From: Tropicimonas marinistellae
GTDB taxonomy: Bacteria; Pseudomonadota; Alphaproteobacteria; Rhodobacterales; Rhodobacteraceae
Length of the DNA: 64,000 bases
Assembly (NCBI RefSeq): GCF_001509585.1
Contig: NZ_LNCI01000001.1
Span: forward strand, 248,001-312,000
Direction of reading: 5' to 3'
A program made the translations under genes and the position numbers. Below are positions 8,586-38,680 of the stretch, piece after piece. Under the pieces are notes generated by a model, which worked only from the letters and a program-made list of their open reading frames with translations, was not told the DNA's origin and did not search any database. Position 1 is the first letter of the stretch. Every line of letters begins with the position of its first letter.

Positions 8586-8957
8586 ATGCCCAGAGATAGC
8601 CAGAAGAAGCGCCGGCATACGTTTATCCACGGCTTCTTGGATGCTGTTTCCGATCCAGGCGTCAGGCTTCTGCTTGCGCTTACCGCCACCGTCGTTTTTG
8701 CCGGTGCGGTGGTGTATTCCTTTCTTGAAGGTTGGGGCGTTGTCGACTCGATTTATTTCGCAACCGTCACAATCGCCACTGTCGGGTATGGCGATCTGGC
8801 TCCCCAGACGTCGGCAGGCAGACTGTTCACCGTTGGATACATCGTCGTCGGGATCGGGCTTTTCGTCGCCTTGGCGAGCGCTCTTGCGAACCATCTTATC
8901 CGCAGGGCGCAGCGGGACCTTGGCTTGCCGGACACCGACGATGATACGCAGGGTTGA
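8586..8957 (+). CDS. Two-TM potassium channel subunit
   Basis: A 123-residue Ion_trans_2-type channel: TM1 at about residues 28-46, a pore helix and selectivity filter TIATVGYGDL (filter TVGYGD), then TM2 at about 81-104. It would tetramerise to form a K+ pore in the inner membrane. There is no cytoplasmic RCK/TrkA domain, so it is a minimal KcsA-like subunit. A strong GGGGGGAGGA ribosome site precedes the ATG. Confidence 0.88.
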   Translation: MPRDSQKKRRHTFIHGFLDAVSDPGVRLLLALTATVVFAGAVVYSFLEGWGVVDSIYFATVTIATVGYGDLAPQTSAGRLFTVGYIVVGIGLFVALASALANHLIRRAQRDLGLPDTDDDTQG

Positions 8958-9077
8958 CCGAGCTTGCGGTTGCCCGGTCGTATTGCCCAAATCTTGAGCA
9001 ACGGGCGTTTTTCTATTGCCGAAATCGCTTTGGAAGCCTTTTGTTGGCGCAGATAACCTATTGAATGGGCCGAATTG

Positions 9078-9101
9078 CCCCGCGTCAGTCCTGTCGCGGG
9101 G
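9078..9101 (+). promoter_or_regulatory. Inverted repeat in leader of the glycosylglycerate operon
   Basis: CCCCGCG (9078-9084) and CGCGGGG (9095-9101) form a perfect 7-bp repeat around 10 nt, in the 250-nt non-coding stretch between the K+ channel gene and the binding-protein gene. It could be a leader hairpin or an operator. No regulator gene is linked to this operon. Confidence 0.35.
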
Positions 9102-9132
9102 ATACATCGGTTCCCTTTGCCGATGCTGCCGG

Positions 9133-9161
9133 CTGGGAGTTCTTTCCTGGAAATCCCAGGA
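9133..9161 (+). promoter_or_regulatory. Two overlapping, mutually exclusive hairpins upstream of the binding-protein gene
   Basis: CTGGGA (9133-9138) can pair with TCCCAG (9154-9159), while TCCTGG (9145-9150) can pair with CCAGGA (9156-9161). The two pairings share bases and exclude each other. The site is 47 nt before the start codon. It may be an operator for an unlinked regulator or an RNA switch; this is inference only. Confidence 0.3.
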
Positions 9162-9207
9162 GGTTATCCGCCGGTCGAAGTCGCTTAAGATTGTCAGGGA
9201 GGAATAC

Positions 9208-10554
9208 ATGATCAGTAAATCAGCTCTTTTCGGTGGGACAGCCTGCGCGTTCGCGCTGTCTGCCCTTGCTGCTGAGGCCGATACGGTCCGTTTCTGGACC
9301 ACGGAGATTCAGCCAGCGCGTCTCGAGCGCCAACAGGAGATGGCAGCCCAGTTCACGGACGCGACCGGCATCGACGTGGAGGTGATCCCGGTTGAGGAGA
9401 ACGAGCTGGCCACCCGTGCGACCGCCGCCTTTGCGGCGGGCGACTTGCCGGACGTAATCTATCATCCGCTGTCATACGCCTTGCCGTGGGTGGAGGCCGG
9501 AATTCTCGACGCGGAGGCCGCGACCGAAGTGATAGAGGCGCTGGACTCGGCGACCTTCGCTGCGGGAACGCTGGAGATGGCGCGTACCGAAGACGGTTGG
9601 GCCAGCGTGCCTTCCGATGGCTGGACACAGATGATCGTCTACCGAAAGGACCTGTTCGACGGCGCTGGTCTCGAAGCCCCGACGACTTACGACGCCGTGC
9701 TCGCCGCCGTGGAGGCGCTGCACAACCCGCCCGAGATGTATGGTTTCGTCGCTGCCACGAAGGCAGATGACAATTTCATGAGCCAGGTTCTCGAGCATGT
9801 GTTCCTTGCCAACGGAGTCTCGCCAGTTGACGCGAACGGCTTTGCGCCGCTCGACGAGGCGAAGACCACCGAAGTACTGGATTTCTACAAGGCGATTGTG
9901 GAAGCGTCGCCGGCGGGGGAACTCTTCTGGAAGCAGTCGCGCGAGATTTATTTCGACGGCAAGGCTGCAATGATCATCTGGTCGCCGTTCATCCTGGACG
10001 AACTCGCAGGCCTTCGTGACAGCAACCCACCGACGATAAATGACGATCCGACCAGCACGGAACTGGCATCGTTGACCGGTATCGTGACGAACTTCTCCGG
10101 CCCGTCGAATTCGGACGGTGCGGCCTGGTCCAGCACCAACCTCTTCGGGATCACCGCGGATGCGGATACCGAAAGCGCCGTGGAATTCGTGAAATTCGCG
10201 ATGGACGAGGGGTATGCCCAGACACTTTCGATCGCGCCCGAAGGGAAGTTCCCGGTCCGCAAGGGCACGGCCGCGGACCCCAGCGAGTTCTCGAACGCGT
10301 GGGCACAGCTTCCGGTCGGCGTGGATCGCAAGGCGCCGCTGTCCGAACTTTACGCGCCGGAGATGATCGACGAGATCGTCGGTGGGCTCGACGTGGCACA
10401 GCGTTGGGGCGTAAAGGAAGGGCAACTCGGACTCGCCTCCAAGATCATCAACAGCCAGGCGATCAACCGCTACGTCCGCGAGTACATCGACGGGGAGCGG
10501 GATGCGGCCGAGACGATTGCCGCGATGAATGAGGAACTGGGCAAGATCCAGTGA
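9208..10554 (+). CDS. ABC importer solute-binding protein (family 1), proposed glycosylglycerate binding
   Basis: A 448-residue periplasmic binding protein of the MalE/SBP_bac_1 class. The signal peptide covers about residues 1-23, and the mature start DTVRFWTTE is typical. Later signatures include AAGDLPDVIYHP and the C-terminal DAAETIAAMNEEL helix. The start at 9208 follows a clean AGGGAGGA site; an extension to 9016 has no export signal. It opens a six-gene operon with two permeases, a GH63-type hydrolase, an ATPase and a glycerate kinase. That context, not its own sequence, suggests mannosyl- or glucosylglycerate as ligand. Confidence 0.9.
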   Translation: MISKSALFGGTACAFALSALAAEADTVRFWTTEIQPARLERQQEMAAQFTDATGIDVEVIPVEENELATRATAAFAAGDLPDVIYHPLSYALPWVEAGILDAEAATEVIEALDSATFAAGTLEMARTEDGWASVPSDGWTQMIVYRKDLFDGAGLEAPTTYDAVLAAVEALHNPPEMYGFVAATKADDNFMSQVLEHVFLANGVSPVDANGFAPLDEAKTTEVLDFYKAIVEASPAGELFWKQSREIYFDGKAAMIIWSPFILDELAGLRDSNPPTINDDPTSTELASLTGIVTNFSGPSNSDGAAWSSTNLFGITADADTESAVEFVKFAMDEGYAQTLSIAPEGKFPVRKGTAADPSEFSNAWAQLPVGVDRKAPLSELYAPEMIDEIVGGLDVAQRWGVKEGQLGLASKIINSQAINRYVREYIDGERDAAETIAAMNEELGKIQ

Positions 10555-10584
10555 CCAGTTGCGATCTGGCGAATGCACTTCATG

Positions 10585-10608
10585 TACCGGCGGTGCTCAC
10601 CGCCGGTA
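10585..10608 (+). promoter_or_regulatory. Intercistronic hairpin after the binding-protein gene
   Basis: TACCGGCGGT (10585-10594) and ACCGCCGGTA (10599-10608) form a perfect 10-bp stem with a GCTC loop, in the 70-nt gap between the binding protein and the first permease. No U-tract follows. It occupies the same place as the frcB-frcC hairpin and probably raises binding-protein mRNA relative to the permeases. Confidence 0.6.
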
Positions 10609-10624
10609 AGGTCCGGAATGTACG

Positions 10625-11872
10625 ATGACGTCCGCTGTCCCACCCAAGGGCACGGGGCCACTCGCCCGACGTGAGGCACGCCTCGCCTGGGGTTTGCTTC
10701 TGCCCACGATCTTCAGCGTGGCAATGGTGATCATTCTTCCGTTGCTGTCGATCTTCTGGATCTCCTTCAAGCCCATCGGCCTCGCGGACCTGCGCCCACC
10801 TGTACCAGTGGTGCGAGAGAGCCTGCGCGGTCGTCCCGCTGCGGCGGGGGATGTGGCCGAAGTCGAGTACAGGCTTCGCAATTCCAGCCAGGACGAGGTG
10901 ATATCCGGTGTCACCCTGTCGGACCATTGGCCGCCGGGCATATCCCTCGTCGGCGAGATGCCGGAAGGGTGCTCATTGAGCGGACAGGATTTCTTCTGCG
11001 ATTTCGGAGACATCGATCCGAAGTTCAACTCACGGTTCCGCATCGAGGTTGAGGTCGGGCAAGCATTCTTCGACTGGGGCGGCGATCCGGAGGAGAGCCT
11101 CCCCGTCGTGACCGGGACGGCTGACAATGTACTGACCAACGCCGAGTTCACCCTCGATAATTTCCGCCGCATCTTCGACGGCGCAGAGTTCTGGTCCGTT
11201 CTTGGCGTGACCCTCGCCTACACGATCTTCGGGACTATCGGCGCGCTAGTCGTCGGGCTCTTCGCCGCACTGCTGCTCAACCGGGAGTTTCGCGGGCAGG
11301 GGGTTCTTCGGGGGCTCTACCTCTTTCCCTACGTCGCGCCGGTTATCGCCGTGGCCTTTACCTGGGTGACGTTGTTTGACCCGACATCCGGATCGGCCAA
11401 CGAATTGTTGATCCGCATGGGGCTCACCGGAGCGGGTATCAACTTCTTCGGACAGAAGCCGCTGGCGCTTATCATGGTGATCCTGTTCGAAGTCTGGCGC
11501 TATTTCCCGCTGTCGTTCCTCTTCATTCTGGCACGCCTGCAATCGATCGACCACGATATGTATGAGGCGGCAGACATGGACGGCGCCTCGCCGTTCCAGA
11601 AATTCTGGTACCTCAGCCTGCCGATGCTACTCGGTATTCTCTCCGTCCTGTTCCTGCTCCGCTTCATCTGGACCTTCAACAAGTTCGACGACATTTTCCT
11701 GCTTACAGGTGGTAGCGCCGGGACGCGCACGCTGACGGTCAACGTCTACGAACAGGCGTTCGCCATCTCCAACATCGGCGCTGGTGCGGCTGTCGCCGTG
11801 TTGATTTTCGCAATTCTTCTCGTGTTCTCGTTCTTTTTCTTCAGATTCATCAGCCGGGAGGAAGGGTTGTGA
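10625..11872 (+). CDS. ABC importer permease (MalF type) with DUF11-like extracytoplasmic insert
   Basis: A 415-residue MalF/UgpA-type permease, over 100 residues longer than usual (about 290-310). TM1 spans about 21-48. Residues about 58-165 then form a hydrophilic insert before the core resumes at FTLDNFRRIF (175). The insert reads like a DUF11/CARDB beta-sandwich (VEYRLRNSSQDEV, TLSDHWPPGIS) with two cysteines (116, 125) able to form a disulfide. It occupies the position of the MalF P2 loop that contacts the binding protein, but resembles it in place rather than sequence. The EAA loop EAADMDGASPFQKFWYLSLP contacts the ATPase. Confidence 0.9.
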   Translation: MTSAVPPKGTGPLARREARLAWGLLLPTIFSVAMVIILPLLSIFWISFKPIGLADLRPPVPVVRESLRGRPAAAGDVAEVEYRLRNSSQDEVISGVTLSDHWPPGISLVGEMPEGCSLSGQDFFCDFGDIDPKFNSRFRIEVEVGQAFFDWGGDPEESLPVVTGTADNVLTNAEFTLDNFRRIFDGAEFWSVLGVTLAYTIFGTIGALVVGLFAALLLNREFRGQGVLRGLYLFPYVAPVIAVAFTWVTLFDPTSGSANELLIRMGLTGAGINFFGQKPLALIMVILFEVWRYFPLSFLFILARLQSIDHDMYEAADMDGASPFQKFWYLSLPMLLGILSVLFLLRFIWTFNKFDDIFLLTGGSAGTRTLTVNVYEQAFAISNIGAGAAVAVLIFAILLVFSFFFFRFISREEGL

Positions 11873-11924
11873 ACCGACGTGATCACCTCCGCGGCGAACG
11901 CTTGCGACATGCGGGAGCTCAGGC

Positions 11925-13139
11925 ATGAAGACATTGCGGAAGGGAGCGATCGTCGGTCCAGTCGTAGGCGCGCTTTGGCTGCTCATCGTCGCAACCGCCG
12001 TTGCCGTCGCGATGTCGTTTGCAACGGGGAATGCCTTCAGGCCGGGTCTCGCCGGTTCTATCCTTCTGGGGGTCACACTTGGCGGCGCCGCACTGACGAT
12101 TCGCAATGCGTGGCTGCTGATCGTCACGGGCGCAATCGCCGCCTTCATGATGACGGCAGCCGGCATTGGCGCGGTGCAGGTCGGCGACGGTGTCGATACC
12201 GTGCAGGTTGCGCTGGCATCGCTGGTCACTGGCATCGGTGCCGGCTGGCCGCTCTCCGTCATCCTGGCGCGGCAGCCCACGGGCGAGATGACCCGGCACG
12301 AGTTCGAGGAGGTCCTGCTCCGCTTCCTGACGGGTTTCGGCTATATTTTCTTCACCGCCATCGTGGTCATTCCCTTCTACGTCATGGTTATGACCTCACT
12401 GAAATCGCAACAGGCGCTACTGGCGAATCCGCTCGATTTCTCTGTTGATCTCTCGAAAGGCTGGGATCTCTTCCGCAGCTACCGTGAATTGTTCGAGGAT
12501 TTCCATTTTGGATCCTACCTCTGGACGTCCTTCTACGTCTCGGTGCTGACGGTGCTGATCACGCTGCTGTTCTCGGTGCCCGGTGCCTATGCGGTGGCGC
12601 GGCTGCGTTTTACCGGCCGGGCGGCCTTCTCACGCTCGATCCTGCTGATCTACATGGTGCCGATGATCGTCGTGGCGCTGCCGATCTACATTGTCTTCTC
12701 GGTCACCGGGCTGCGGAACTCGATCTTCGGGCTGGTGCTGATCTATCCCGTGACAACGATTCCGGTGTCTCTCTACATGCTTCAGGGCTATTTTCGCGGG
12801 TTGCCGTCGGAAGTGGAGGATGCCGGGTTGATGGATGGCCTTTCGCGGCTGCAGGTCATTTGGAAGATAACCTTGCCGCTCAGCCTGCCAGCGCTGGCAT
12901 CGGTATCGCTCTATGTGTTCATGATCGCCTGGAACGAATTCCTGCTGGCCTTCATGTTGCTGGACGACCCGTCGAAATTCACGCTCACGCGCGGCGTCGC
13001 GATGCTGAATTCGTCAGAGGTGCCGCGCCAGCACCTGATGGCGGGGGCGGTGATCGCCACTGTACCGATCATGGTGCTGTTCCTCGGTCTGGAGAAATTC
13101 ATGACGCGCGGTCTGACTGCCGGATCGGTGAAGGGCTAG
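11925..13139 (+). CDS. ABC importer permease (MalG type) with N-terminal membrane extension
   Basis: A 404-residue MalG/UgpE-type permease. The canonical core begins near residue 130 (RFLTGFGYIFFTAIVVIPFYVM) and carries the EAA-type loop EDAGLMDGLSRLQVIWKITL. Before it lie about 125 extra residues with four hydrophobic segments and glycine-rich turns, which typical 270-300-residue MalG proteins lack. A GGGAG box seven nucleotides upstream supports the ATG at 11925. It pairs with the preceding permease to form the translocation pore; the hydrolase gene starts 4 nt after its stop. Confidence 0.9.
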   Translation: MKTLRKGAIVGPVVGALWLLIVATAVAVAMSFATGNAFRPGLAGSILLGVTLGGAALTIRNAWLLIVTGAIAAFMMTAAGIGAVQVGDGVDTVQVALASLVTGIGAGWPLSVILARQPTGEMTRHEFEEVLLRFLTGFGYIFFTAIVVIPFYVMVMTSLKSQQALLANPLDFSVDLSKGWDLFRSYRELFEDFHFGSYLWTSFYVSVLTVLITLLFSVPGAYAVARLRFTGRAAFSRSILLIYMVPMIVVALPIYIVFSVTGLRNSIFGLVLIYPVTTIPVSLYMLQGYFRGLPSEVEDAGLMDGLSRLQVIWKITLPLSLPALASVSLYVFMIAWNEFLLAFMLLDDPSKFTLTRGVAMLNSSEVPRQHLMAGAVIATVPIMVLFLGLEKFMTRGLTAGSVKG

Positions 13140-13143
13140 CGAC

Positions 13144-14400
13144 GTGGGGAATGATGCGGATCAGGCGGCCCGAGAGGTCCTGCGCGACAACGATCGCGGT
13201 ACCTACACCGTGCCCACCGACAACCTCTATCCCTTTCAGTGGAACTGGGATTCCTGCTTCGCCGCCTGGGGGTTTTCGACCTTCGACGTGCCGCGTGCCT
13301 GGGTGGAAATCGAAACGCTACTGGCCAACCAATGGGAAAACGGGATGATGCCGCATATGGTCTTCCACGATACCGCACCCGGCTATTTCCCCGGGCCGGA
13401 GGTCTGGGGCACAGGCAGGACGCCACCGACTTCCGGCATCACCCAGCCACCGGTGGCGGCAACGCTTGCGCGGGCCGTGTACAAGGCCGATCCGGACTAC
13501 GGCCGGACACACATGGCGTCGGTATTCGGCATACTCCTCGGCTGGCACCGCTGGTTCATGACCGAGCGGGTGGAGCGCGGCATGGTTGCCGTTACGCACC
13601 CCTGGGAAACGGGGCGAGACAATGCGGTAGACTGGGATGCGGCGATGGGCACCGTCGATACCTCCGGCGTCGGTGAGTACAAGCGCCGCGACCTGCAGGA
13701 GGTGGCGGCCGACCAGCGGCCGAAGAAGGCGGAGTACGACAAGTATCTCGCCATGGTCTATTTCGGCCGCGAATGTGGGTGGGACGAGGCCGTCATTCGC
13801 GAAGCGGGTCCGTTTCGTGTGGCCGACGTTGGCATGACCTTCATCCTCTTGCGCGCTTGTCGGGACCTGTTAGCGATGGCGCGCGATTTGGGTGAGCCGG
13901 CCGAAGAAATCGCCGGTTGGATCGCCACGCTGGAAGCGGGCGCGCGCAACCATTGGAACCCCGATGGCGAGTACTTCGATTCCATCGACCTTCGGACCGG
14001 CGCCTTCGCCGGCGCGCTGACCAACGCGAGCTTTCTCTGCTGGTACGCAGGTATCGATGATGCGCGTATGTTGGGCCATTTGGAGCGGCAGGCCGCGGCC
14101 CTGACCTATCTCGTGCCTTCGCTCGATCCCGACCATCCAGAGTTCGATGCGCTACGCTACTGGCGCGGACCGGTCTGGGGGATCGTCAATACGCTGATCG
14201 GGCTGGGACTGGCGGAAACCGGGCATGACGAACTGGCGCGACGCGTCCGCAAGGATTCGCGCCGGCTTATAGAGGCCAGCGGCTTTTTCGAGTATTTCAG
14301 TCCTTTGGACGGAACACCGGCCGGGGGCGGACATTTTTCATGGACGGCCGCCGTTTGGCTGGCCTGGGCATCGCCTGCGGCGAATGAGAGGATCTTCTGA
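13144..14400 (+). CDS. GH63-type mannosylglycerate/glucosylglycerate hydrolase-like enzyme
   Basis: A 418-residue (alpha/alpha)6-barrel glycosidase with no signal peptide, hence cytoplasmic. It matches the MGH1-like branch of GH63, whose characterised members cleave mannosylglycerate or glucosylglycerate to sugar and D-glycerate. Visible family signatures are [13 protein letters not shown] (31-43), HPWETGRDN (152-160) with Asp159 as candidate acid, YWRGPVWG (339-346), and [10 protein letters not shown] (381-390) with Glu383 as candidate base, then [11 protein letters not shown]. The GTG start at 13144 follows the upstream permease stop closely, and the ATPase start overlaps its stop by one base (TGATG). 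A glycerate kinase two genes downstream fits release of glycerate. Confidence 0.82.
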
Positions 14401-15452
14401 TGGGAGCGATCACGCTGGACGCCGTCGAGAAATGGTTCGGTGAGACACAGGTAATCAAGGGCGTGGACTTGCAGATCCCGGACGGCGAGTTCGTGATCTT
14501 CGTCGGCCCCTCAGGCTGCGGGAAATCAACGTTGTTGCGGATGATTGGCGGTCTGGAGGAAACCTCGCGCGGACGTATCCTGATCGACGAGGCGGATGTC
14601 ACCGCAGAGCCGCCGGCCAAGCGCGGGTTGACGATGGTTTTTCAATCTTATGCGCTCTACCCGCATATGTCGGTGGCCGACAACATGGGGTTCTCGCTCA
14701 AGACCTCTGGCGCTCCGAAGGCGGAGATCGAAACCAAGGTCGCGGAGGCCGCGCGGGTGCTGAAGCTCGAGCCCTATCTGGAACGCCGGCCCAAGGATCT
14801 CTCGGGTGGTCAGCGGCAGCGCGTGGCCATTGGCCGGTCGATCGTGCGTGATCCCACCGCCTTCCTCTTCGATGAGCCGTTGTCGAACCTTGACGCAGCG
14901 CTGCGGGTAGAGATGCGTTACGAGATCGCCAAGCTGCACCAAGCGCTTGGCACGACGATGATCTACGTCACCCATGACCAGGTGGAGGCGATGACGCTCG
15001 CCGACCGTATCGTCGTGCTGGAGGCCGGCAGGATCGCGCAGATAGGCACGCCAAAGGAACTCTACGAGCGTCCGGGCAATCTCTTTGTGGCGCAATTCAT
15101 CGGTTCGCCGAAGATGAATGTCCTGCCCTGCAGAACCGAGGCGGGCACCTACTACCTCGAAGGCGGTCGTGGTGGTGAGTACGGGTTTGGCACCCCTGCC
15201 GCGCATATAGGCGTTCGCCCCGAGCACATCACTGTGGGCGCATCCGGTGCGGGCGCCTGCGACGGCGTGGTAGACGTCGTCGAGTATCTGGGAGCAGATA
15301 CATACCTGATCGTGGATGCAGGTGCGCTCGGGCAGGTCACGGTACGGGTTTCGTCCGAAGACGGGCACCGGCCGGGTGATCAGGTTAGCCTGATCTTCGA
15401 TCCGAAGTGGCAGCTCTTCTTTTCCGCGGACGGGCTCGCGGTATCAGGCTGA
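14400..15452 (+). CDS. ABC importer ATP-binding protein, UgpC/MsmK/MalK type
   Basis: A 350-residue cytoplasmic ATPase of the carbohydrate-uptake class that powers the two permeases upstream. Walker A is GPSGCGKST (36-44), the signature LSGGQ 134-138, Walker B aspartate/glutamate 158-159 and the switch histidine 192. A C-terminal TOBE/OB regulatory domain (about 235-350, including IGVRPEHI) is present, as in MalK. It is placed after the hydrolase gene rather than next to the permeases. The one-base overlap with the hydrolase stop indicates coupled translation. Confidence 0.93.
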
Positions 15453-15477
15453 CCGACCAGACGAAAAGGCAAGGCGA

Positions 15478-16731
15478 ATGCACTGTTCTTCCCCCGAAAG
15501 CCTCTTGCGCGCGTTGTTCGATCGTGCGGTGGAAGTGGCCGACCCGATGGCTGTTCTTCGCGCAGAACTGCCTGACAAGCCCGCTGGGCGAGTCGTCATC
15601 GTCGGCGCAGGAAAGGCCTCAGCCCGCATGGCCGAGGCCGTGGAACGCAACTGGGGTCCTTGCGAGGGGCTCGTGATTACCCGCTACGGCTACGCCCGGC
15701 CTTGCGATGGTATCGAGATCGTCGAAGCGGCGCACCCGGTACCAGACGAGGCCGGTCTGGTCGCCACCGCGCGGATGCTGGCGTTGCTGGAGGACCTTGG
15801 GCCGGGAGATCTTGTGCTCGCGCTGATCTCAGGCGGTGCCTCGGCACTGCTGGTTCAGCCGGCCGGAGAGATCACATTGGCTGAGAAACAAGCGGTGAAC
15901 GCCGCGCTGCTGGCCTCCGGCGCGCCAATCGGCAAGATGAACATCGTCCGAAAGCACCTCAGCCGTGTGAAGGGCGGCCAGCTCGCGGCGGCTGCGCATC
16001 CTGCGCGCATGCTGGCTTTGATGATTTCCGATGTTCCCGGTGACGATCCGGCTTTCATCGGATCAGGGCCGACTGTCGGCGACGCCAGCACTCCCGACGA
16101 GGTGCGCGAGATCATCGACAGGTGGAAGGTGGAGGTGCCGCAATCGGTTCACGATGTTCTGGCGGCCCCGACAGGTGTGATCCCTCCCGGCGACACAAGG
16201 CTCTCCCGCGTGGAAAACCGCGTGGTCGCCGCCCCGTCACTGTCGCTCGCAGCGGCACGTGAGATGGCTGAAGCGGAGGGCTGCGAGGTCGTAGCACTCG
16301 GGGATGCCGTCGAAGGTGAAGCGCGAGATGTGGCGCAAAAGCACGCAGAGGCGGCACTCGCGGTTCGTTCTCAACGCCCAGTACTTCTGCTATCGGGCGG
16401 CGAGTTGACAGTTACCCGACGCGGCAGCGGTATTGGCGGGCCGAACGCGGAATATGCTCTTGCACTGGCGATCGCACTCGACGGCGCGCCGAACATTCAC
16501 GCGCTGGCCTGCGATACGGACGGGGTTGACGGTGCGGCCGAGGTTGCCGGGGCCATGATCGGCCCGGAGACCCTCCGGCTGGCTGCCGAGGCCGGCGTGG
16601 ATCCTGTCGCTGCGCTTTCAGGCAACGATGCGCACACTTTTTTCGAGGCGGTCTCCGGTCAGGTCGTCACCGGACCGACTCTGACCAATGTGAATGATTT
16701 CCGTGCCATCCTCGTATTGCCGCAAGCGTGA
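15478..16731 (+). CDS. Glycerate kinase type 2 (DUF4147/MOFRL family)
   Basis: A 417-residue GckA/TtuD-family protein. Such enzymes phosphorylate D-glycerate with ATP, usually to 2-phosphoglycerate; some homologues were historically called hydroxypyruvate reductase. The N-terminal DUF4147 domain (about 5-230) has VIVGAGKASARMAEAVE, LISGGASALL and KHLSRVKGG. The C-terminal MOFRL domain (about 300-410) has LLSGGELTV, GGPNAEYALALA and ACDTDGVDGAA. It lies 25 nt after the ATPase gene and closes the operon. In context it would capture glycerate released by the GH63 enzyme and feed it to lower glycolysis. Confidence 0.88.
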   Translation: MHCSSPESLLRALFDRAVEVADPMAVLRAELPDKPAGRVVIVGAGKASARMAEAVERNWGPCEGLVITRYGYARPCDGIEIVEAAHPVPDEAGLVATARMLALLEDLGPGDLVLALISGGASALLVQPAGEITLAEKQAVNAALLASGAPIGKMNIVRKHLSRVKGGQLAAAAHPARMLALMISDVPGDDPAFIGSGPTVGDASTPDEVREIIDRWKVEVPQSVHDVLAAPTGVIPPGDTRLSRVENRVVAAPSLSLAAAREMAEAEGCEVVALGDAVEGEARDVAQKHAEAALAVRSQRPVLLLSGGELTVTRRGSGIGGPNAEYALALAIALDGAPNIHALACDTDGVDGAAEVAGAMIGPETLRLAAEAGVDPVAALSGNDAHTFFEAVSGQVVTGPTLTNVNDFRAILVLPQA

Positions 16732-16825
16732 GTACCTCTGAGAGAAACCGACAAGTCGGCAACACTGTGAAGCTGCTGGCGCGGTTGCCTTGCCTGCCCC
16801 GGTATCGCTCCCTACATGGGGCCGC

Positions 16826-17620
16826 ATGAAGCGCTCTTTTCCCTTTTTCAACCGTGCCCCCCTGGTCTCGGTGATCCGTCTGGGCGGCATGATTGCTGCG
16901 GGTCGCCGCGGATTGAACGATGCCGGCTGTGCTGGCATGATCGAGCGCGCATTCCGGCGCGGCAAACCGAAGGCGGTTGCGCTGGTCATCAATTCGCCGG
17001 GCGGGTCGGCGGCGCAATCCTCGCTGATCGCCGGGCGAATCCGGCGGCTGGCAAAGGAGAAGGATCTCCCGGTTACGGCGTTTGTCGAGGATGTGGCCGC
17101 ATCCGGCGGCTATTGGCTTGCCTGCGCAGCGGACGACATCATCTTGGACGAAACCTCTATCGTGGGATCTATCGGGGTGATTTCCGCCTCCTTCGGCTTG
17201 CAGGACTTCATTGCGCGTTTCGGGGTCGAGCGCCGCGTCCATACGGCCGGGGAGTCGAAGAGCTTCCTCGATCCATTCCAACCGGAAAAGCCGGAAGACG
17301 TAGCACGTCTGACGGCGCTGCAGGAACAGATCCATCAGAGCTTCATTGAACATGTGAAGTCCCGTCGCGGTGATCGCCTCGACGGCGAGACGCCTCTCTT
17401 CACCGGAAATGTCTGGGTGGGACAGAAGGCGGTCGATATTGGGCTCGCCGATGGGGTGGGGCACCTCGCGGCGGTGATGAAGGAGCGCTACGGCGACAAT
17501 ACACGGTTTGCGGTTCATGGTCCGCGCCGGGGCTTGCTTCGCCGGTTTGGATTGGCGGCGGCTGAGTCAGTCGCGCTCGGGCTTGAGGAGCGCGCACTCT
17601 GGGCGCGGTACGGGCTCTAG
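16826..17620 (+). CDS. S49 family peptidase (SppA-like)
   Basis: A 264-residue short-form signal-peptide-peptidase/protease IV homologue with one S49 domain. The candidate serine nucleophile lies in VAASGGYWLACAADD and the lysine partner in GESKSFLDPF, the Ser-Lys dyad of this family. INSPGGSAAQSS is the oxyanion segment. No clear N-terminal membrane anchor is seen. I use the ATG at 16826; a TTG 36 nt upstream is possible. It is coupled to the next small gene by a one-base overlap (TAGTG). Confidence 0.85.
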   Translation: MKRSFPFFNRAPLVSVIRLGGMIAAGRRGLNDAGCAGMIERAFRRGKPKAVALVINSPGGSAAQSSLIAGRIRRLAKEKDLPVTAFVEDVAASGGYWLACAADDIILDETSIVGSIGVISASFGLQDFIARFGVERRVHTAGESKSFLDPFQPEKPEDVARLTALQEQIHQSFIEHVKSRRGDRLDGETPLFTGNVWVGQKAVDIGLADGVGHLAAVMKERYGDNTRFAVHGPRRGLLRRFGLAAAESVALGLEERALWARYGL

Positions 17621-17811: not shown

Positions 17812-18789
17812 ATGCTAGAGGATATCGCCCTGGCCAGTCTGGGGTTGGTGATCCTGCTTTTGGCGGGGGATGCGTTGGTGAAGGGGGCGGTGAACCTCGC
17901 TCTGCGCCTTGGGGTTCCAGCCCTGCTTGTCTCGCTAACCATCGTCGCGTTCGGAACCTCTGCGCCCGAGTTGCTCGTCTCGGTGCAGGCGATCATGACA
18001 GGGGCGCCAGGGATTGCGCTTGGCAACGTGATCGGGTCGAATATTGCGAATGTACTCTTGGTGCTCGGTGTGCCCGCGTTGCTGACCGGGCTGCATACGT
18101 CCGGATGCGAGACCCGCAAGAATTACACGCTGATGATAATTGCCACCCTTGTTTTCATCGGTTTGGCATTTACGGACCTGTTCAACTGGATCGATGGAAC
18201 CGTTCTGCTCCTGATGCTGGGCTTGTTGCTTGGTGACGCGTTGCGCACGGCGCGCCAGCACCGGCGCAACACGCGACACGCGGCGGAGGCCGCCGCCTGT
18301 GCACAAGATGGCCTGGATGAAGTCGAAGGAGCCGATGCTTCCCTGCCCACGTGGAAAACGCTCATCTACTTGGGACTCGGTTTGATCGGCCTGCCGCTCG
18401 GCGCCGATATCCTTGTGGATTCGTCGGTTCGTATCGCGGCAGAACTACAGGTGCCGGACACGGTGATTGGACTGACACTCGTCGCGATCGGAACCTCGTT
18501 GCCGGAACTGGCAACGACCGTTATGGCTGCAATTCGGGGTCAGACCGAGGTGGCAATGGGCAATGTCATCGGTTCCAATCTCTTCAACATGCTTGCCATT
18601 ATCGGCATCGCGAGCTTCGTAGGGCCGATCCCGGTTGATCCCCAAACGCTCCGCTTCGACATCTGGGTCATGCTTCTTTCGGCGTTGGTGCTCTTTCCAT
18701 TCGTGTTTATGCGGTGGGACATGGGGCGCGTCTGTGGCGGTATCCTGACGGCGGTCTATGTGGTGTATCTGGTCGTGGTTGTGGTCTGA
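17812..18789 (+). CDS. Calcium/sodium antiporter, CaCA family (YrbG-like)
   Basis: A 325-residue inner-membrane cation exchanger with ten predicted helices in two inverted halves. Each half carries the alpha-repeat signatures: FGTSAPELLVS with GNVIGSNIANV in the first, and IGTSLPELATT with GNVIGSNLFNM in the second. The central loop (about 140-180) is hydrophilic and acidic. It exchanges Ca2+ for Na+ or H+. The ATG follows the preceding stop without a gap, so it is probably co-transcribed with the S49 peptidase. Confidence 0.9.
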   Translation: MLEDIALASLGLVILLLAGDALVKGAVNLALRLGVPALLVSLTIVAFGTSAPELLVSVQAIMTGAPGIALGNVIGSNIANVLLVLGVPALLTGLHTSGCETRKNYTLMIIATLVFIGLAFTDLFNWIDGTVLLLMLGLLLGDALRTARQHRRNTRHAAEAAACAQDGLDEVEGADASLPTWKTLIYLGLGLIGLPLGADILVDSSVRIAAELQVPDTVIGLTLVAIGTSLPELATTVMAAIRGQTEVAMGNVIGSNLFNMLAIIGIASFVGPIPVDPQTLRFDIWVMLLSALVLFPFVFMRWDMGRVCGGILTAVYVVYLVVVVV

Positions 18790-37207: not shown

Positions 37208-38680
37208 ATGAAATTTCTACGCAGATCCCTGACCGGATTGTTGCTGCTGTCATTGACGGTCGGGTTGCTCGCCTACGGCGGTCGGGTGTTCCTCGATGCT
37301 GTCGAGGTGCGGATGAATCGCGAGACGCAACAGCGCCCCGCGAGTGAACGGGTTTTCGGTGTGAATTCGGTGGACGTGGTTTCGACGCAGATCACGCCCA
37401 CGATGCTTGCGTTCGGCGAGATTCAAAGCAGGCGGACGCTGGAGGTGCGGGCCGGCGCGGGCGGACGGATTGTCGAACTGGCCGAGAACATGGAGTCTGG
37501 CGGGTTCGTCGCCGCGGGTGCGCTCCTGGCGCGCGTGGACCCGAAGGACGCCGAAGCCGCTTTCGAAATCGCGCGCACCGAGGTTGCCGAAGCGGAAGCA
37601 GAACTCAGGGACGCGGAGCGCAACCTGCAACTCGTGCGGGACGAATTACAGGCCTCCCAGGCGCAGGCGGACCTGCGAACACAGGCGTTGATCCGGCAAC
37701 AGGACTTGGCACGGCGCGGCGTCGGCACTGAGGCGGCAATCGAAACCGCCGCCCTGGCGGAGGCGAGCGCGAACCAGGCGGTTGTGAGCCGTCGTATGGC
37801 GGAGGCCGCGGCGGAGAACAGGGTGGATCTGGCGGGCAACCTGCTGGCGCGGGCGCGCATCGCGCTGGATGAAGCCGAGCGCGACCTTGAGGATACGGAG
37901 GTGCGCGCGGCATTCAGCGGAACCCTTGCCGACGTCTCGGTCGTCGAGGGCGGTCTGGTGACGCAAAACGAGAGGCTCGGCACGCTGATCGACCCGGAGG
38001 CTCTGGAAGTGGCGTTCAGGCTTTCCACCACGCAATACGCCCGGCTGCTGGACGATACCGGCCGCCTGATCGGGGCGCCGGTCCGGGTCACTTTGGATGT
38101 TCTGGGCTTGGATCTGGAGGCCGCCGGTCACATCTCGCGCGTGGACGCGTCGGTTGGCGAGGGTCAGACGGGGCGCTTGCTATTCGCGCGTCTGGATCGC
38201 TTTGCCGGCTTCCGCCCGGGAGATTTTGTAACGGTTCACGTGGAGGAACCGGCTCTGACCGACGTCGCGGTCCTACCGGCAACGGCGCTGGATTCCGCCA
38301 ACACCGTGCTCGCCATCGACGAAGACGACCGGCTTGAGGTCGCTCAAACCGAGTTGCTGCGTCGGCAGGGTGACGACGTTATCGTCGCTGCCGCCGGGCT
38401 GGAGGGCCGGCGCATCGTTGCCGAACGCTCCCCACTCCTTGGAGCGGGCATTCGCGTACGAGACCTGACGGCCGAAAACGCGCCTGCACTGGCAGGTGCT
38501 GCGTCCGGTGACGGAGCAATGATCACGTTGTCGACGGAGCGTCGCGCGGCGCTGATTGCCGCGGTCGAAGCGAACAGCCGGATGCCTGCGGAGGCCAAGG
38601 CGCGTATCCTGTCGCAACTGCAGGAAGACAACGTGCCGGCCGGGATGGTCGAACGTATCGAGAGCCGGATGGGGGGCTGA
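37208..38680 (+). CDS. RND efflux periplasmic adaptor (HlyD/MFP family)
   Basis: A 490-residue membrane fusion protein. An N-terminal signal anchor (about 5-27), a split lipoyl/barrel-sandwich domain (VRAGAGGRIVELAENMESGGFV... and VRAAFSGTLADVSVVEGGLV) and a long alpha-hairpin rich in Ala/Glu/Arg (about 115-235) are followed by beta-barrel domains. The final 50 residues form an unusual helical tail (STERRAALIAAVEANSRMPA onward). It lies 4 nt before the RND pump gene and links the pump to an outer-membrane channel, which is not encoded here. Confidence 0.9.
   Translation: MKFLRRSLTGLLLLSLTVGLLAYGGRVFLDAVEVRMNRETQQRPASERVFGVNSVDVVSTQITPTMLAFGEIQSRRTLEVRAGAGGRIVELAENMESGGFVAAGALLARVDPKDAEAAFEIARTEVAEAEAELRDAERNLQLVRDELQASQAQADLRTQALIRQQDLARRGVGTEAAIETAALAEASANQAVVSRRMAEAAAENRVDLAGNLLARARIALDEAERDLEDTEVRAAFSGTLADVSVVEGGLVTQNERLGTLIDPEALEVAFRLSTTQYARLLDDTGRLIGAPVRVTLDVLGLDLEAAGHISRVDASVGEGQTGRLLFARLDRFAGFRPGDFVTVHVEEPALTDVAVLPATALDSANTVLAIDEDDRLEVAQTELLRRQGDDVIVAAAGLEGRRIVAERSPLLGAGIRVRDLTAENAPALAGAASGDGAMITLSTERRAALIAAVEANSRMPAEAKARILSQLQEDNVPAGMVERIESRMGG

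Follow-up and report, generated by a model that had tools for sequence, protein, structure and literature searches.

A conserved operon with a predicted role in glycosylglycerate uptake and hydrolysis in Tropicimonas marinistellae and its relatives

The DNA considered here, referred to as the window, is a stretch of 64,000 nucleotides from the 5.4-Mb genome of the rhodobacterial species Tropicimonas marinistellae (contig NZ_LNCI01000001.1, positions 248,001 to 312,000). At positions 9208-16731 of the window there are six closely packed open reading frames (ORFs) on the forward strand, separated by gaps of 70, 52, 4, -1 and 25 bp, which make up a candidate operon for the import and hydrolysis of the compatible solutes glucosylglycerate (GG) and mannosylglycerate (MG). 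The first gene (9208..10554) encodes a solute-binding protein (SBP) of 448 aa belonging to a CUT1-type ATP-binding cassette (ABC) importer (Pfam SBP_bac_1/8; SBP_bac_1 8.7e-21); mechanically its ORF opens at 9016, and the ATG at 9208 is preceded by GGAGG. It is followed by the genes for a MalF-kind permease (10625..11872, 415 aa; BPD_transp_1 2.9e-17), a MalG-kind permease (11925..13139, 404 aa; BPD_transp_1 1.9e-19 over aa 219-394), a glycoside hydrolase of family GH63 (13144..14400, 418 aa; MGH1-like_GH, PF22422, 6.1e-113) and a MalK/UgpC-kind ATPase (14400..15452; ABC_tran and TOBE_2), which scores 445.8 bits with the UgpC subfamily model NF008653, above its cut-off of 432. The last gene, 25 bp after the ATPase gene, encodes a glycerate 2-kinase (15478..16731) with both the DUF4147 and the MOFRL domain (PF13660 6.7e-82, PF05161 5e-33). 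Thus, the SBP, the two permeases with BPD domains and the MalK-type ATPase with TOBE constitute a CUT1 ABC importer, and the six-gene composition that had been read from the ORFs alone was confirmed by coordinates and Pfam domains. We infer that all six genes are co-transcribed.

The match of the hydrolase to PF22422 covers profile positions 1-356 of 356, and among solved structures the closest is the mannosylglycerate hydrolase (MgH) of Thermus thermophilus, TtMgH (2z07, 2.4e-98), followed by five variants of the glucosylglycerate hydrolase (GgH) of M. hassiacum, MhGgH (7e-62 to 1e-59); the next match in the PDB is a debranching enzyme with an E value of 0.07. The protein is identical to TtMgH at 177 of 401 aligned positions (44%) and to MhGgH at 37% of the aligned columns. 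For MhGgH, 19 positions have been reported to take part in catalysis or to contact the substrate (PMC6608630; here and below, articles are cited from those parts of their text that were available), and 18 of them are identical in the window hydrolase, the same 18 being identical in the Thermus enzyme. The predicted acid is D159 and the predicted base E383, while D36 corresponds to the essential Asp43 of MhGgH. In MhGgH the glycerate moiety is in direct contact with Tyr36, Trp40, Tyr88, Arg216 and Tyr375 (PMC6608630); the corresponding Y29, W33, Y81, R192 and Y339 are identical and, moreover, invariant in 15 of 15 aligned proteins. Since these residues are kept and MhGgH cleaves neither glucosylglycerol nor glucosylglycolate (PMC6608630), the acceptor specificity should be for glycerate. 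Accordingly, glucosylglycerol, which the original prediction had also listed for assay, is an unlikely substrate. The single deviating position, 434, is Gln in MhGgH and Phe in both the window hydrolase and TtMgH; the Thermus enzyme, like that of Selaginella, cleaves GG and MG at similar efficiency (PMC6608630), so this residue gives no choice of hexose. No signal peptide was seen in the hydrolase on inspection by eye.

A tree built from 31 chosen rows nests the window hydrolase within the MgH/GgH rows (Rubrobacter, Mycobacterium, Thermus) with YgjK outside; in it TtMgH diverges after both MhGgH and the Rubrobacter row. The branches of YgjK (10) and MhGgH (2.57) are long and the root is therefore unsure. 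The Rubrobacter row is presumed, on the basis of the same species, to be the MgH named as characterised in PMC6608630. Family, residues and, within the limits of this root, tree position thus all bear out the assignment to the MgH/GgH type, and the phylogeny does not place the enzyme outside that group.

The arrangement of the genes is widely conserved. The GgH model matched in 16 of 60 genomes including that of T. marinistellae, 15 of the matches being full-length and none above the model cut-off. Fourteen further loci were compared, by tblastn maps of gene order, with the window and with 80 named loci, which are the best 80 of at least 577 confirmed relatives, so that close kin are over-represented; removal of copies (L027, L028, L030 and L031, equal to L085, L086, L090 and L091) left 91 distinct loci. 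The order SBP-permease-permease-GH63-ATPase and its strand are kept in 77 of these, window included, a count that also contains L164 with the full gene order plus a second ATPase match. Another six loci are cut by contig ends with the last three core genes visible, three (L019, L020, L021) have another transporter beside the hydrolase, and in five no transporter is linked to the hydrolase within the stretch read. Such conservation of order and strand is beyond chance. The hosts of the named loci are mainly Rhodobacterales, and also include Cohaesibacter, Pseudovibrio, Roseibium, Grimontia, Enterovibrio and gammaproteobacterial metagenome-assembled genomes (MAGs). The transporter-free hydrolases (L087, L088, L092, L093 and L023) are close relatives at 60-62% identity.

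A second type of transporter was met in plasmid records. Among 115 such records with a hydrolase match, 15 neighbourhoods were read, of which four have the transporter of the window (type 1), ten have another ABC set before the hydrolase (type 2) and one has no ABC genes; no ABC genes lie beside the Rubrobacter hydrolase L213. Type-2 sets are found on plasmids of Loktanella, Ruegeria sp. B32, Marinovum, strain SC52, Fuscovulum, Roseomonas gilardii, Rhizobium and Meiothermus and, by gene order, of Jannaschia and R. marmotae. The SBPs of the five type-2 sets compared have no meaningful similarity to the window SBP, and their first permeases are 25-31% identical to that of the window, as expected within the CUT1 class. 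The SBP of Loktanella salsilacus is identical to that of L020. The partner genes of the type-2 sets vary: Loktanella and Jannaschia have a mannose isomerase and a glycerate kinase, Marinovum and SC52 a mannose isomerase alone, and Rhizobium and Ruegeria B32 no isomerase, glycerate kinase, phosphorylase or amidohydrolases. The Meiothermus locus (L209) has a phosphorylase that is 46% identical to E. coli YcjM and carries the motifs TETN and PYELC; TETN and PYELN are motifs of glucosylglycerate phosphorylase (PMC10608839), and YcjM has only TETN of the two. No GH13_18 phosphorylase was found by Pfam domains among the six operon proteins of the window and their four neighbours. Type-1 hydrolases form one group in the 31-row tree (98/94), with the transporter-free L023 inside, and type-2 hydrolases do not; provided that the tree is rooted correctly, this would suit one swap of transporter.

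Further genes were observed at individual type-2 loci. In Roseomonas (L217 7754-10340, L225 7745-10340) the hydrolase gene is followed, in the same orientation, by genes for two amidohydrolases and a Rieske protein. A PIG-L family deacetylase lies directly after the hydrolase in two type-2 operons (L019 8369-9073, L219 7748-8443) and would fit a substrate that is acylated or N-acetylated. The 26-kb plasmid of Jannaschia sp. W003 (L224) has the regulator, importer, hydrolase, mannose isomerase and glycerate kinase together and is a candidate portable mannosylglycerate pathway.

Most relatives of the operon have a local regulator. In 51 of the 91 loci a LacI-type gene lies directly upstream of the SBP gene and shares its strand, and in 10 more such a gene is divergent (family by Pfam for L134 and L020, by similarity or annotation for other loci). 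At or just upstream of the regulator start there is an exact 14-bp palindrome, CGAAACCGGTTTCG, in 44 of the 51 loci, and AAACCGGTTT in 46 of them. When 35 chosen whole genomes were scanned for the exact operator, 31 had exactly one copy, in 29 cases at this operon; the single copies in G003 and G005 are located within ORFs of other genes and were set aside. It is missing from the genomes of T. marinistellae, of the related G006 and of L112 and L117, the last two of which have the regulator without the exact site. The region upstream of the window operon (8958..9207, +) contains neither a LacI gene nor the exact operator. The only match near the SBP gene, at 9020-9033, has 3 mismatches and was not accepted as an operator. 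The whole window has 14 sites with no more than 3 mismatches, against 5.1 expected and with as many in 1 of 100 shuffles; the best of them, at position 37552, has 2 mismatches. The best regulator matches in the genomes of T. marinistellae, G003, G005 and G006 are only 34-37% identical, and given the missing gene and site the regulator was apparently lost in the branch of the window.

With these elements the function of the operon can be proposed. The SBP would bind 2-O-alpha-glucosyl-D-glycerate and/or 2-O-alpha-mannosyl-D-glycerate in the periplasm, and the two permeases with the ATPase would bring it in unchanged. In the cytoplasm the inverting GH63 enzyme, with acid D159 and base E383, would release hexose and D-glycerate, of which the glycerate would be converted by the kinase to 2-phosphoglycerate for lower glycolysis. 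Glucose could be used via the glucokinase of the genome, and mannose via its homologue of mannose/lyxose isomerase. We consider it very likely that the operon imports and hydrolyses GG and/or MG with subsequent phosphorylation of glycerate; this is the route of the original prediction, and it draws support from hydrolase family, residues and tree, from neighbourhoods in other lineages, which indicate glycerate and one or the other hexose, and from the SBP and first permease, which are closest to E. coli YcjN and YcjO. From these comparisons we infer the substrate, the direction of transport and the products. The T. marinistellae genome has both a glucokinase and a 75% homologue of the mannose isomerase, and the isomerase gene neighbours the type-1 operons of L157 and L161 as well as several type-2 operons, so no decision between glucose and mannose follows. 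Two Pfam models for PMI type I, the only kind of PMI sought, had no match in the genome. The substrate is unlikely to be made by the cell itself, because of the two synthase families sought, MPGS had no match in the genome and GPGS had nine, all far below the cut-off (best 71 against 262 bits); the GPGS model gives weak matches in 14 of 14 control genomes as well.

Several observations weigh against this proposal or parts of it. The hydrolase reaches 319.1 bits with the NCBIfam GgH equivalog NF047898, below the cut-off of 550, and is for that reason not filed as GgH proper; the kinase likewise scores below its equivalog cut-offs (202 against 550 bits for NF041176, 155 against 670 for NF040791). 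A count of extra genes in 106 loci (copies included, window excluded) gave 11 glycerate kinases and one type I glycerate kinase, while the mannose isomerase was found in only six and the phosphorylase in one. The closest solved structures for the SBP are 7v09 and E. coli YcjN (8vqk); the SBP is only 24% identical to YcjN over 456 columns, and a published screen found no ligand for YcjN (PMC11543891).

The remaining points of this kind concern the kinase. No glycerate kinase is present in the stretch read in 82 of the 91 loci, some of these stretches being contig-limited. Kinase homologues occur in 46 of the 60 genomes as against 15 with a full-length hydrolase, T. marinistellae counting in both, and its genome has three DUF4147 genes. 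In addition, the operon is positioned inside an older block, which begins with a K+ channel gene (8586..8957, +; PF07885 2e-21) and continues after the kinase with genes for an S49 peptidase (16790..17620, +; PF01343 1e-30) and a Na/Ca exchanger family protein (17812..18789, +; PF01699 3.8e-62). In the related genomes G004, G005 and G006 channel, kinase, peptidase and exchanger genes stand side by side without the operon (contiguous in L071, L072 and L073), and the adjacency of the kinase within the genus is therefore weak evidence alone. In the window and in four genomes of its genus set (G001, G002, G007 and G008) the operon is followed by the kinase, peptidase and exchanger genes; the channel gene was also observed before it in the window and G008. 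As the window hydrolase groups with those of G003, G005 and G006 in the tree, the operon was either ancestral at this site and left some species, or entered twice. On these grounds the kinase of this genus might lie outside the pathway, the operon having landed between the channel gene and the old kinase-peptidase-exchanger block. We regard this as unlikely, considering the gap of only 25 bp, the common strand and the repeated adjacency outside the genus, in one case with a kinase that is not homologous.

Indeed, the glycerate kinases found in the stretch read at nine of the 91 distinct loci are spread over five lineages. One is Tropicimonas/Aliiruegeria; the others are Limimaricola soesokkakensis (L110), where the kinase gene lies ahead of the regulator gene, a Rhodobacter MAG (L125, beside the operon), L020, which has the other transporter, and an Oceanospirillaceae MAG (L099), whose type I kinase (PF02595) is not homologous to the DUF4147 kinase. 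On a plasmid of Maritalea myrionectae the order is LacI-SBP-permease-permease-GH63-ATPase-kinase with 32 bp between ATPase and kinase, so that the window-type operon occurs with a glycerate kinase in Tropicimonas/Aliiruegeria, Limimaricola, Rhodobacter, Oceanospirillaceae and Maritalea, again five lineages. Plasmids of Limimaricola variabilis, Loktanella salsilacus and Jannaschia have further glycerate kinase neighbours. With about two such kinases per 4000 genes and two neighbour slots, we estimate that chance alone would give approximately 0.1 cases of adjacency. The recurrence in several lineages is stronger evidence for the kinase than its adjacency in the genus, and the kinase is an occasional partner, not a diagnostic member of the operon. 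What had been proposed as a telling partner is thus telling in its recurrence and not diagnostic in its frequency, being in part a neighbour from the older block; of the linkage of hydrolase, ATPase and kinase that was to be checked across Rhodobacterales, the hydrolase-ATPase order holds and the link to the kinase is occasional.

It could also be argued that this is an ordinary uptake operon for trehalose or other alpha-glucosides, with a trehalase-like or alpha-glucosidase hydrolase and an unrelated kinase. Public records name several relatives of the hydrolase 'trehalase family glycosidase' with a trehalose Gene Ontology term, and the best match of the LacI regulator in the T. marinistellae genome (35%) adjoins a set of similar gene order, L176, labelled agl-like from gene order and ORF lengths only. 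The transporters of the two sets, which the genome has separately, are hardly alike (first permease 25%, second permease 30%, no match for the SBP) and not orthologous, and an agl alpha-glucoside operon was rejected. The invariant glycerate-holding residues and the two families of glycerate kinase that recur beside the operon also speak against trehalose, making this explanation very improbable. Equally hard to favour is import mainly for osmoprotection with a hydrolase that merely trims the pool once stress ends, in the manner of the mycobacterial GgH, which works on stored substrate following nitrogen starvation (PMC6608630), given that the hydrolase gene sits within the transporter operon and that most relatives have the local LacI-type regulator and some have catabolic neighbours.

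Import and catabolism of glycosylglycerates may be one case of a broader phenomenon. With more reserve, we think it probable that a widespread and unrecognised sink for GG and MG exists, with at least two non-orthologous ABC importers, each having its own LacI regulator, with varied partner genes and, by extension, with YcjN as a glucosylglycerate receptor. The hydrolase would be its fixed part, accompanied according to lineage by glycerate kinases, mannose isomerase or a phosphorylase. One importer would have displaced the other a single time within the hydrolase tree, and one would have a DUF11-type domain in its permease. In E. coli YcjN and YcjO are encoded next to the glucosylglycerate phosphorylase gene ycjM, the first gene of their operon (YcjN at L222 3910-5202), and the first permease of the window is 37% identical to YcjO over 229 columns. 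Glucosylglycerate is thereby a candidate ligand for YcjN, a distant relative of the window SBP; the main text of the YcjN ligand screen does not contain the word (PMC11543891).

The operon resembles several known systems in part. TtMgH (TTHA0978; PDB 2z07/4wva) and MhGgH (5ohc) share its fold family, catalytic pair and glycerate site and are nearest to its hydrolase by sequence and tree, but the window enzyme lies in an import operon. The E. coli ycj operon (ycjM, ycjNOP, YcjW) has a related SBP and permease, a LacI regulator (YcjW, 24% identical) and a glucosylglycerate enzyme, but uses phosphorolysis instead of hydrolysis and has extra enzymes for kojibiose and gulosides. E. coli MngA and MngB take up and break down mannosylglycerate to yield glycerate; this involves phosphotransferase uptake with phosphorylation and a GH38 enzyme, and is not known to involve an ABC importer. 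The agl operons of Alphaproteobacteria have a LacI regulator about 35% identical and the same order SBP-permease-permease-hydrolase-ATPase, which we take to be that of aglEFGAK with AglR and a GH13 hydrolase; their transporter is only distantly related, and T. marinistellae has both sets. Finally, transport and breakdown of glucosylglycerate have been proposed from one operon with a putative transporter gene in Prochlorococcus, a cyanobacterium that, in contrast, synthesises the solute and recycles it to glucose-1-phosphate and 3-phosphoglycerate (PMC11631117).

The enzyme families are therefore already known, and a glucosylglycerate-operon transporter has already been proposed for Prochlorococcus (PMC11631117). 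No description of the operon, its regulator or the transporter swap was found among the listed matches (titles and openings of abstracts) in the open-access literature, subscription papers being outside this scope, and in line with this, the original prediction had known of no ABC operon of such make-up; the available text of PMC11009771, PMC12636525, PMC8269247, PMC6775983 and PMC4052901 does not describe it either. The operon is real and widely conserved, and its catabolic function is well predicted. Plasmid records label relatives of the hydrolase 'hypothetical protein' or 'trehalase family glycosidase' (L209, L212, L214 and others), so annotation misses the pathway, and the latter name with its trehalose term looks misleading for proteins of the MgH/GgH group. 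If the proposed function is true, the food source would be the osmolytes of cyanobacteria, algae and other microbes, and the gene set, the regulator with its exact operator and the marker enzyme would allow GG/MG consumers to be counted in metagenomes. Mannosylglycerate is a compatible solute of red algae, among others. In Prochlorococcus NATL2A, glucosylglycerate makes up one of two major compatible solutes (PMC11631117). Sugar use has been reconstructed in consortia that include Rhodobacteraceae and were already known to contain glucosylglycerate, with no pathway for this solute in the available text (PMC5507952).

Both permeases have unusual additions. In the MalF-kind permease, a predicted periplasmic beta-sandwich of the DUF11 kind (10805..11119, +; aa 61-165) is inserted after the first helix, the place at which MalF has its P2 domain. 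AlphaFold2 gave block means of 67-82 for aa 71-150; the mean pLDDT of the whole model is 51, poor outside the insert, and the membrane part was excluded from interpretation. The fold matches CBM2-like domains (E ~3e-4), and DUF11 matches were obtained for the insert in 9 of 11 family members at E<=10 (best 7.7e-5, window 0.0046), which is below the Pfam cut-off, so that annotation overlooked it. The MalG-kind permease has approximately 130 extra N-terminal residues (11925-12315) with hydrophobic stretches by eye and no Pfam match, and the length is conserved within the family.

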